Shown: piece by piece, positions 21,621 to 25,483 of the stretch
How the letters are laid out: every line of letters starts with the position of its first letter
Position numbering within the stretch: position 1 is the stretch's first letter
Assembly: GCA_026707325.1 (NCBI GenBank)
Contig: JAPOXA010000110.1
Location: 1 to 64,000, forward strand
Direction: 5' to 3'
DNA length: 64,000 bases
DNA from: Acidobacteriota bacterium
Lineage (GTDB): Bacteria; Acidobacteriota; Thermoanaerobaculia; Multivoradales; Multivoraceae
Notes under the pieces: generated by a model
What the model was told of the DNA's origin: nothing
The model's input: only the letters and a program-made list of their open reading frames with translations
Database searches by the model: none
Made by a program: the position numbers and the translations under genes

Positions 21621-21650
21621 GAGCCTGCGACGGTTTTGGCGGCTCTAGCC
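21615..21650. terminator. Possible bidirectional terminator hairpin between convergent genes
   Basis: Inverted repeat ggctaggagcc ... ggctctagcc (one bulge) spanning both stop codons; no clear U tract. Confidence 0.4.
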
Positions 21651-24293
21651 CTGGGGTTTCAGGTGGGTCTCGAACAGCTTGAGAATGCGGCGGTACTCGT
21701 CGAGCCAGCTTGAGGGTTCGACGAAGCCGTGGGCTTCGGCCGGATAGACGGCGAGTTCCCAGTCCTCCTTGCCGAGTTCGATCAGGCGCTGAACGAGGCG
21801 AACCGAGTCCTGGAACAGGACGTTGTCGTCCAGCATGCCGGTGCAGATGAGGAGGGGTTCCCGCAGGCCCTCGGCAAACTCGATCGGCGAGCTCCGCTCG
21901 TAGGCTTCGGGGTCGAGTTCCGGCGTGTTCAGGATGTTCGACGTGTAGCGGTGGTTGTAGTGGGCCCAGTCCGTCACCGGCCGGAGCGCCGCACCCGCCG
22001 CGAACAGTTCGGGGCGGCGGAACATCGCCATGAACGTGACGAAGCCACCATAGGAGCCGCCGTAGACGCCGATCCGTTCCCGGTCGACCCCGTGCTCGGC
22101 GACCAGGTAGTCGATGCCGTCGGCGAGATCCTCGACCTCGGGAGTGCCCATCTGCCGGTAGATCGCCGTGCGCCAGTCGCGGCCGTAGCCGGCGGAGGCG
22201 CGGAAGTCCATGTCGAGCACGACGTAGCCGCGACGGGCGAGCAGGGTGTGGAACATGAACTCACGGAAGTAGGAGGACCAACCCTGGTGGGCATTCTGGA
22301 GGTAGCCGGCGCCGTGCACGAAAACGACGGCGGGTCGTGGAGCTTCCGTGGGGCCGGGAGGCAGGTAGAGGCGGGCATGGACCGGGCGTTCGACGTGCGA
22401 GGAAGGCACCTCGACGAAGCGGGGCGGGACCCAGTCGATGGCGAGGAACTCCGGCGACGCCGTGTCGGTCAGGGGGATGGCCTCGGCGCCCGGCGATGCC
22501 TCCTGGAGCCAGAGTTCGGGCGGCCGGGTGGCGGTGGAATGGACGATCAGGAGATGGCGATCGTCCGGCGAGAGGAGGAAGGAGTTGAGCCCGCCGAGTG
22601 CGGTGACCTGTTCGATCGCGCCGGCGGCTGATTCCTGGACCGGCGCGCGGAAGATCTCGAAGACGCCCGGGTGATTCCGGTTCGCCTCGAAGTAGAGGAA
22701 GGCGCCGTCGGCCGAGAGCCGGGGCGAACGGACGACGAAGTCCCCGTCCGTGATCCGACGTCCTTCGCCGGTCGCCGTGTCCATCAGGTTGAGATGCGAG
22801 TAGCCGGTTTCCTCCGACAGGAAGAAGATCGTCCGGTCGTCCCGCAGCCAGCCGAGATCGCGAAAGGCGTAGTTGATCCAGGCCGGGTCGGTCATCCGGT
22901 GCAGGGGACGCAGTTCGCCGGCTTCGAGGTCGTCGGTTCCGAGGTCGATTCCGGCGATCCAGCGGTCCTTGTTGTCCACCGAGTAGACCTGCACGACGGC
23001 CCGTGTGCCGTCGCGGTTGAAGGACACCGGGCCGAAGCGGACCGGCCGGGGTCCGGGCTTCTCCTCACCGGTCTCCTCGTGGTTCTGTTCGACGGATTCC
23101 GGTTCGGCCTCGTCGGCGCCTTCGCCGCTGGCTGCTTGCTTCGCTGCCGCTTCCCGGGCCTCCTTCCGCTCGCGCGCCGCCTCGCGCAGGTCGGCCAACG
23201 GATCGTCCGCGATGCCCGGCAGCACGGAGAGGTCCACCGTCGCGGGCTCCGGGTCCTCGGCACGCAACAGGAGCAGCGTTTCGCCGGCAGCCTCCGACGT
23301 GCCGACCTTCGGCCGCACCTCCTCGACGTCCACCATCCCCGTGGCGGTGACGTAGTTCGGCATCCTGTCCCGGAGACCCTCGTCGCGCTCTTTCGGACGG
23401 GTTCGCACGATGAGGCGGTCGAGCGCGGGTGACAGCGTTGAGCCGGCGACTTCCACCTCCCTGCCCAGGTAGTGGGGAAGGGCCGGCCGGCTGGAGTCGC
23501 CGGTCTGCCGCTCCCTGAAGACCTCGAGGCTTCGTTCCTCGCGCTGGCGCCGCAGGCGGACGATCTCGAGCAGTCGCGGCTGCTGGCGCTCCAGGTAGCC
23601 GGCCCTGGCGTCCTGCTCGGAGCGCGCCTGCTCGGGCTCGTCTTCCGTGCGAACGTCGAACGGCTGCCACAGAAGGCCGGTTCTCCGCTCCCGCACGAAC
23701 CACACACCGATCCGCCGGAAGGCGAGGTCGCCGCCGACGGTGAAGAAGGGCGCGCTTTCCGGGGCGACGGTGCGGGTGATCTGGATCAGCCCGCCGTCAC
23801 GGTCCAGGTCGCGGACGAAGAGATCCCCGGCCTTGACGAAGACCCGGCGGCGTTGTTCGCGGTCCCAGTTGCCGCCGGCGCCGTCCGCGCCCGCGCGGTC
23901 GCGGTCGGAGACCCGGATCGTCTCGCGCGTGTCGAGGTCGACCCGGTAGAGGTCGCGGGTTTCCTCGCCCTCCCGCTTGCGCTGGAAGTAGACGCTGCCG
24001 CCCTCGCTGCTCCAGTACGGGCCCTCCGGCTGGCGGCCCAGCCAGTCGGGATGGGCCATGATCCGTTCGAGGGTGAGGTCGTCCTGGGCCCCCAGGGGAA
24101 GAACAGGCAGGAACAGGCCCGCGGCCAGGGCGGCCGCGCCAAAGCGGTGCCGGCCTTGCGGCCGGCACCTTGTCTCCCGGGGGTCAGAAGACCCCCGGAC
24201 ACGCGCCTTCGGCGCGCTCTCTCCGCGGGTCAGAAGACCCGCGGCAACAGACCCGCGCACCCAGTGGGCGGCCGCGGGCGGTCGAACGGGCAA
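21645..24293 (-). CDS. S9 family peptidase (prolyl oligopeptidase/DPP IV-like), exported
   Basis: GVYGGSYGGFVTFMAMFRRPELF catalytic Ser motif, DDNVLFQDS Asp, AEAHGF His, propeller region. No ATG before the signal peptide; start is TTG 24293 or GTG 24260. Confidence 0.88.
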   Translation of the reverse strand: MPVRPPAAAHWVRGSVAAGLLTRGESAPKARVRGSSDPRETRCRPQGRHRFGAAALAAGLFLPVLPLGAQDDLTLERIMAHPDWLGRQPEGPYWSSEGGSVYFQRKREGEETRDLYRVDLDTRETIRVSDRDRAGADGAGGNWDREQRRRVFVKAGDLFVRDLDRDGGLIQITRTVAPESAPFFTVGGDLAFRRIGVWFVRERRTGLLWQPFDVRTEDEPEQARSEQDARAGYLERQQPRLLEIVRLRRQREERSLEVFRERQTGDSSRPALPHYLGREVEVAGSTLSPALDRLIVRTRPKERDEGLRDRMPNYVTATGMVDVEEVRPKVGTSEAAGETLLLLRAEDPEPATVDLSVLPGIADDPLADLREAARERKEAREAAAKQAASGEGADEAEPESVEQNHEETGEEKPGPRPVRFGPVSFNRDGTRAVVQVYSVDNKDRWIAGIDLGTDDLEAGELRPLHRMTDPAWINYAFRDLGWLRDDRTIFFLSEETGYSHLNLMDTATGEGRRITDGDFVVRSPRLSADGAFLYFEANRNHPGVFEIFRAPVQESAAGAIEQVTALGGLNSFLLSPDDRHLLIVHSTATRPPELWLQEASPGAEAIPLTDTASPEFLAIDWVPPRFVEVPSSHVERPVHARLYLPPGPTEAPRPAVVFVHGAGYLQNAHQGWSSYFREFMFHTLLARRGYVVLDMDFRASAGYGRDWRTAIYRQMGTPEVEDLADGIDYLVAEHGVDRERIGVYGGSYGGFVTFMAMFRRPELFAAGAALRPVTDWAHYNHRYTSNILNTPELDPEAYERSSPIEFAEGLREPLLICTGMLDDNVLFQDSVRLVQRLIELGKEDWELAVYPAEAHGFVEPSSWLDEYRRILKLFETHLKPQG
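24146..24244. repeat. Cluster of four perfect hairpins (REP-like palindromes)
   Basis: 24146-24169 ggtgccggcc-ttgc-ggccggcacc; 24177-24198 ccgggggtc-agaa-gacccccgg; 24202-24216 cgcgcc-ttc-ggcgcg; 24223-24244 ccgcgggtc-agaa-gacccgcgg. Confidence 0.85.
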
Positions 24294-24297
24294 GCTG

Positions 24298-25374
24298 TTA
24301 CAGGGACTCGAAGTACTCGATCATCGCCTGGGCGGTGGCTCCTTCCGGATGGTTGGGGGCCACTTCCAGGAACTTCCTGAACGTCTCGAGCGCCTTGTCG
24401 TTTTCCGACTGGGCGGCGTAGCAGAGGCCGAGCATGTTGAGCGCTTCGGGGTGATTCGGATTGAACCCGACGACCTGCTCCAGCTTCGACAGGGCTTCGG
24501 GAATCTTGCCGGCGTTGTAGAGGTCCGCTGCCTCGTTGTAGAGGTTCTTCGCGGCTTTCTCCGGATCCGTGTTCTGGAGGGACGCCAGGGCGGCTGCGGC
24601 CTTGTCGTCCATTCCCAGCGCGTTGTAGCCGGCGTAGAGGATCTGGTTCATGTTCTCCAGGTCCTCTCCCTCCGCGGCCACCTTCTCGGCGTACTCCACG
24701 GCCCGGACGTGGTCCTCCCGGAACGAGTAGACGCGGGCGAGTCCGCCCATCGCCGAGGTCAGGTCCGCCTTCCTCTCGAGGGCGCTCTGGAACATGAACT
24801 CGGCGGTCTCGTAGTCGCCCGAGTTCAGGGCGTTGCTGCCCTGGTTGTAGAGCTTGATCGCGCTGCCCCGGGCCTCGGCTTCCAAGTCCACGGCCTGATC
24901 GGGCTGCGGGATGCCGGCGGCCTCGAACTGCGCCGCCTGCTGCTTCAGGGCCTCGTCTTCCGAGGTCAGGTTCCAGTCACCGCCGCCGGGGAGCTGGCTG
25001 AGCCTGGTCTCGTTCCGGGCGGGGATGCGGACGTTGCCAACTCGCCGGGTCACGTAGCCTTCCTTCTTCAACTCGACGGTGAAACCGCCGCGCTCGTGCG
25101 TGACGACGTTCTTGATCATGATCCGGAACCGGCCGTTCTTTCCGGAGTGGTGCACCTCCCGGAAGGTGGGCGCCTCGGGGTTCGTGAAGATGATCTCCAC
25201 GCCCTCGATCGTTTCTCCGGTTGTGGCGTCGAAGATCTGACCCCACACGGTGCCCGGGAGCTGCGCCGCCGCGGGCGCGACGAGGGCGAGCGAAAGGCAG
25301 ATGCCGAGGGCGGCAGCGAAGAGTCCGGGCCGCGCCGGCTGCTCCAGGGTCCACGGTTCGCGAATCGGCTTCAT
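24298..25374 (-). CDS. Carboxypeptidase-regulatory-like plus TPR repeat protein, exported
   Basis: Signal peptide (LFAAALGICLSLALVAPAAAQ), GTVWGQIFDATTGETIEGVEI domain, TPR segments; ATG 25374 preceded by aaggaga SD. Confidence 0.8.
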   Translation of the reverse strand: MKPIREPWTLEQPARPGLFAAALGICLSLALVAPAAAQLPGTVWGQIFDATTGETIEGVEIIFTNPEAPTFREVHHSGKNGRFRIMIKNVVTHERGGFTVELKKEGYVTRRVGNVRIPARNETRLSQLPGGGDWNLTSEDEALKQQAAQFEAAGIPQPDQAVDLEAEARGSAIKLYNQGSNALNSGDYETAEFMFQSALERKADLTSAMGGLARVYSFREDHVRAVEYAEKVAAEGEDLENMNQILYAGYNALGMDDKAAAALASLQNTDPEKAAKNLYNEAADLYNAGKIPEALSKLEQVVGFNPNHPEALNMLGLCYAAQSENDKALETFRKFLEVAPNHPEGATAQAMIEYFESL

Positions 25375-25483
25375 TGTCTTCTCCTTCGGCCGCACGGGCT
25401 CATGGCGGATCTGCTGGCGCGCGACGGGCCTCCTCCCGCCGGCGGACCTGGTTCCCGGAAGGGGCACTTAGAATAACAGAGCC

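Follow-up and report, generated by a model that had tools for sequence, protein, structure and literature searches.

A REP-like palindromic element at the start of an S9 peptidase gene in a Candidatus Multivorans-type acidobacterium: a probable translated leader insert with a putative RAYT partner

The window, that is, the whole stretch of 64,000 nucleotides that was analysed, carries on its minus strand a gene for an S9 peptidase with a signal peptide. It is preceded by a gene for a TPR-repeat protein running in the same direction, with which it is probably co-transcribed (Table 1). Between the TPR stop codon (24298-24300) and the peptidase core lie four hairpins, placed within the first codons of the peptidase frame. 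A preliminary description made from the letters of the window had reported these hairpins, had noted that the second and fourth share GGGTCAGAAGACCC, and had read the peptidase frame as open through them to GTG 24260 or TTG 24293, with no ATG ahead of the signal peptide. All of these statements were borne out by the window sequence.

Table 1. Features at the junction of the TPR and S9 peptidase genes, in window positions
Feature	Position	Strand	Basis
S9 (prolyl oligopeptidase family) peptidase gene, with signal peptide	21645-24293	-	Pfam PF00326, E=7.7e-50; orthologues
TTG, native initiation codon of the peptidase (first letter at 24293)	24291-24293	-	TTG kept in seven empty and in the other filled orthologues
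In-frame GTG inside the element, alternative start	24258-24260	-	
TPR-repeat protein gene, upstream, same direction	24298-25467	-	Pfam TPR families
Whole copy of the REP-like element (four hairpins and tail)	24146-24264	.	Family comparison; empty-site orthologues
Tail end of the window copy, GACCCGCGCACCCAG	24250-24264	.	Family comparison
Hairpin 1, family position H3, GGTGCCGGCC-TTGC-GGCCGGCACC	24146-24169	.	H3 recurs in most one-ended copies
Hairpin 2, CCGGGGGTC-AGAA-GACCCCCGG, extra GGGTC hairpin that few copies have	24177-24198	.	
Hairpin 3, family position H4, CGCGCC-TTC-GGCGCG	24202-24216	.	
Hairpin 4, family position H5, RAYT-linked palindrome, CCGCGGGTC-AGAA-GACCCGCGG	24223-24244	.	Core GGGTCAGAAGACCC present 100 times in the genome

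Perfect hairpins with arms of at least 8 and loops of 3-8 nucleotides number 17 in the 64-kb window, and three of the 17 fall inside the 99 nt from 24146 to 24244. When this segment was folded and compared with shuffled sequence, z was -6.3 for RNA and DNA alike, and none of 200 shuffles folded as well. The four hairpins are real and above chance. The element exceeds them, extending to 24264 and terminating in the tail end given in Table 1, and the flanks at 24128-24145 (GGCCGCGCCAAAGCGG-like) and 24265-24272, which resemble the flanks of other copies, may also belong to it.

The hairpins are part of a dispersed repeat family. A search of the 5.1-Mb genome found GGGTCAGAAGACCC 100 times and the reversed control sequence not once; the hairpins are neither unique nor ordinary conserved coding sequence, the outcome that the preliminary description had named as contrary to its reading. 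The family end GGGTCNGAAGACCCGCGCACCCAG occurs 120 times in the genome at up to 3 mismatches. Full copies measure 126-144 bp (mostly 139-144) and have inverted ends, CTGGGTGCGCGGGTCTTCYGACCCGC, of 26 bp. More common are one-ended units that span about 71 bp and comprise three hairpins, [GCCGGCC..GGCCGGC]-spacer-[GCCGCCTTCGGCGGC]-A-[GCGGGTCAGAAGACCCGC]-GCACCCAG. The window copy is a variant in which a fourth hairpin is present and the tail is doubled; its extra GGGTC hairpin is also found, with identical 46-nt spacing, at G000:C184:66004-66063. Of 128 copies sampled, about 72 fall between genes, although intergenic DNA amounts to about 9% of the sequence; these counts are rough, as the crude gene calling was strand-unreliable on GC-rich DNA and misplaced the TPR gene. 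Some short copies (L217, L221, L231, L234 and L245) have an additional outer inverted repeat, for example GGAACTGGCCGCC ... GGCGGCCAGTTCC, past the conserved ends.

The family end was found in 19 of the 21 genomes searched of the genus (Candidatus Multivorans-type Acidobacteriota), and 39 further genomes from the same family and order gave no match; within this set the repeat is restricted to the genus. The named public genomes among the matches listed all belong to Thermoanaerobaculia, to Holophagales or to otherwise acidobacterial MAGs, and include Candidatus Multivorans thiocomprendens. The host genus and the matched genomes are presumably sponge-associated, judging partly from sample names. 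A literature search returned no paper bearing the genus name of Candidatus Multivorans.

A gene for a Y1 (HUH) transposase-like protein lies at G000:C25:71996-72598 on the minus strand, with full copies of the repeat on either side (71817-71957 and 72669-72812), on a contig that holds 47 of the repeat copies. Proteins of this kind scored 79-87 bits against the NCBIfam model of REP-associated tyrosine transposases (RAYTs), NF047646, whose cut-off is 80, with two of the four scanned falling just below it. They also match TnpArep of E. coli (4er8) with the HUH and Tyr motifs aligned, and the motifs HVH and Y..NP are invariant among them. An AlphaFold model of the RAYT had a mean pLDDT of 51, too poor for a structure search. 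Around the G000 gene, about 33 repeat copies are found in about 74 kb (G000:C25:28000-102000; L032-L036), far denser than elsewhere in that genome, and similar clusters surround RAYT genes on G007:C10 and G002:C8.

Altogether, 13 RAYT genes were found in 12 genomes, each flanked by the palindrome of its own lineage. The palindrome is GGGTC-RGAA-GACCC in five genomes and GGACC-RGAA-GGTCC in G008 and G014. It is CGGCC-RGAA-GGCCG in G009 and G013, with a CCGAC or CCGGC tail, and in G006, with a CCCAGTG tail; it is CGGCG-RGGR-CGCCG in G010, G011 and at the second gene of G000. The stems differ between lineages with compensation, while the GCGCACC tail is constant. Copy number mostly tracks RAYT type: type III (GGACC) palindromes number 79 and 44 in the two genomes with that RAYT and 0-15 in type I genomes, with one mismatch, G006, in which 44 type III copies occur but no type III RAYT does. 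No RAYT was detected in nine genomes of the genus, some of which are rich in copies; the RAYT may have been lost there or may fall in gaps of the assembly. On such co-variation, the palindromes and RAYTs are predicted to be cognate pairs, and RAYT is the probable mobiliser of the element. Separately, 15 type III palindromes, mostly in inverted pairs about 113-133 nt apart, were found in G000 on C13, C34, C91, C178, C180 and C194, and a search of the same genome for a type III RAYT found none.

The 26-bp inverted ends of the full copies would also suit a MITE mobilised through its terminal inverted repeats by a transposase of the classical DDE kind, with the Y1 gene nearby by chance. We regard this as very improbable, given that the ends are themselves hairpins, that most copies are single-ended, that no target-site duplication is evident at the aroE insertion (see below) or beside full copies, and that all 13 of the 13 Y1 genes carry a lineage-specific palindrome.

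The peptidase gene is present in all 21 genomes of the genus, and comparison of the locus separated empty from filled sites. In seven relatives the site is empty: a short spacer separates the TPR stop from TTG-CCC-GTT-CGA-CCG or close variants, which encode (M)PVRPLAVALAAGLLLPVLPLGAQ. Six genomes are filled (G000, G016, G013, G002, G003 and G011), with the element between PVRP (of 'MPVRP') and the hydrophobic core of the signal peptide, and the peptidase of the window is 46 codons longer than its empty-site orthologues. The distance from TTG to a fixed codon is 228, 228, 204, 195, 171 and 171 nt in these six genomes respectively; each of the six keeps the reading frame open and in phase, and four different lengths are represented. 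Assuming that these lengths are independent of one another, we estimate that the frame would be kept by chance in about 1 in 81 cases. The locus tree places the empty G017 within the filled group (support 89/81), and the AU test disfavoured a single clade of filled genomes (p = 0.036). Exact loss of the element, recombination or an error in the tree may be the cause.

The strong hairpins between two co-directional genes could suggest a gene-specific regulatory leader, such as an attenuator or terminator, or else an artefact of assembly, with no link to a mobile repeat. Such explanations can scarcely be credited for a sequence that is missing from seven orthologues and variable in others, and that is repeated about 100-fold. 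No Rfam family came near threshold on the leader, and the same insertion occurs in a second assembly, G016.

As TTG stands at the same place in the seven empty-site relatives, TTG 24293 is the native start, and the gene was already ATG-less before the insertion. The earlier suggestion that the element replaced the native start finds no support in this genome. The orthologue in G009 (L193) records a separate and independent event: a type II (CGGCC) element sits at the same TPR-peptidase junction, the old TTG has become CTG, and the frame now runs through the element from a new ATG that came with it and that overlaps the TPR stop.

In the explanation that we consider likely, one copy of a non-autonomous, REP/REPIN-like palindrome, partnered with a RAYT, inserted in the start of the S9 peptidase gene and is translated as a leader insert. 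The partner would be the HUH single-strand nuclease encoded on contig C25. The copy would have entered the signal-peptide-coding start some 16-20 nt past the native TTG, in a recent ancestor of some members of the genus, and the gene would have survived because most frames of the GC-rich element lack stops and because the net added length is divisible by three. The ribosome would most likely initiate at TTG 24293 and read through the hairpins, adding an Arg/Gly/Ser/Pro-rich insert of 46 residues to the n-region, ahead of the intact hydrophobic core FGAAALAAGLFLPVLPLGAQ. The protease would probably be made with a longer leader peptide, presumably removed on export, and export should still work. 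The element proved no more open across its frames than expected, with 4.40 of 6 frames open compared with 4.28 in shuffles; its openness follows from high GC content, so that selection need discard frame-breaking insertions only.

Among the alternatives offered in the preliminary description, the N-terminal extension is the best supported, by the dispersed repeat, the empty sites and the in-frame copies at this and other genes, and translation through the element is our best, as yet unproven, reading of the S9 gene. An unlikely but weightier rival than those above accepts the same REP-like element and leaves it untranslated: a late, non-standard start, also among the alternatives of that description, would lie in or after the element, and the hairpins would act on the mRNA through stability, pausing or coupling to the TPR gene. 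The RNA hairpins are indeed very stable, and N-terminal REPs of other species were judged often to be non-coding (PMC3733652). In G002 and G013 an in-frame ATG inside the element directly precedes RRPQGRHRF-GAAALAAG, a conventional signal peptide, but the same position reads ACG or AGG in the remaining four filled genomes. Synonymous and non-synonymous changes in the insert are few, and purifying selection is not clear. Sister-clade orthologues without any ATG, GTG or TTG indicate that unusual starts occur in this gene. Against an untranslated leader, the native TTG is retained, all the length variants share its frame, and in three other genes read-through of the element is either required or the simplest reading.

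The element-free orthologues without these start codons are those of G015, G019, G014, G012, G008, G006 and G020 (L197-L202 and L204), in which ATG, GTG and TTG are all missing in frame ahead of the signal peptide. All seven share an ATA codon that stands 7-8 nt after GGGAG and overlaps the last part of the TPR gene; they may use a non-standard start or some other mechanism of coupling.

The three other genes are aroE, purH and that of a second S9 peptidase. In aroE (an aroDE fusion), the same insert adds 25 residues net between GANTLLP and RWRAESTDPEG, with the predicted element-encoded peptide DFLAASGGSGSEDPR; five genomes are filled and 16 are empty. In purH, element-derived inserts (VRGSSDPLPPKAASTRRPKAD and a variant) lie within the AICARFT/IMPCHase domain in G000 and G017, with GSSDPLPPK as a predicted element-encoded peptide of PurH; in other genomes the insert is absent or leaves shorter traces. 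Since conserved protein lies on both sides, read-through is unavoidable in aroE and purH if each enzyme is one chain, and the insert would be present in the expressed AroE and PurH. In the second S9 peptidase, about 31 residues separate MNRNI from the signal core in six genomes, and MNRNI or MNRSI is joined straight to the core in nine relatives. A nucleoside-hydrolase signal peptide and a hemCD linker look similar, but were set aside as too variable for clean empty and filled pairs. G015 (L293) has a different insert, around GLRGNEQDTNQSDRPSAVGQMDD, in the PurH loop where G000 and G017 carry those derived from the element.

The family resembles the REP/REPIN-RAYT systems, or REPtrons (PMC2817692; PMC3116915; PMC6006769; PMC8266576), in its roughly 100 short palindromes, single or in inverted pairs and mostly between genes. 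It also has a RAYT gene of HUH and Tyr type flanked by palindromes, and a palindrome proper to each RAYT lineage apart from the G006 mismatch. It differs in lacking a GTAG or GTGG foot (or CGTC); the conserved 5' foot is (CTG)GGTGC, and GGTGC adjoins the H5 hairpin in the copies and in the RAYT flanks, for which reason we call the element REP-like and not a GTAG REP. Its units are composite, those of about 71 bp containing three hairpins and those of about 140 bp five, and the host is a Candidatus Multivorans-type acidobacterium.

Intragenic REPs have been reported before (PMC3733652). Like these and the Rickettsia palindromic elements (RPEs), the family contributes in-frame inserts of tens of codons to unrelated genes, including N-termini, that are absent from orthologues, here in the two S9 peptidases, aroE and purH. 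The host and palindrome are different and a cognate RAYT-type transposase is present, and the element may be said to work like an RPE by behaviour, with no claim to membership of that family. TIRYTs are RAYT-type genes with long flanking inverted repeats, as in Koribacter versatilis (PMC3733652; subclass 2.1 of PMC6006769). They are similar by description, being bounded by inverted repeats with self-complementary tracts and known from an acidobacterium, but copy numbers here are REP-like, and the likeness carries no subclass assignment. The kind of element is already known; what is new lies in the foot and the host genus, in palindrome-RAYT pairs that co-vary, and in a series of sites seen in both the empty and the filled state.

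This RAYT-linked REP family with a non-GTAG foot may, we suggest tentatively and with somewhat less than even confidence, be a recurrent source of new protein sequence in the genus, in signal-peptide n-regions and loops of essential enzymes, and in one species together with a new start codon. To our knowledge, the mover and the translation of intragenic palindromes, in Rickettsia and in other genomes, have seldom been demonstrated. This one genus brings together a likely mobiliser, palindromes that co-vary with it, and sites both empty and filled in several genes; both questions become directly testable in it, and two of the insert-bearing genes encode housekeeping enzymes in which read-through is hard to avoid.
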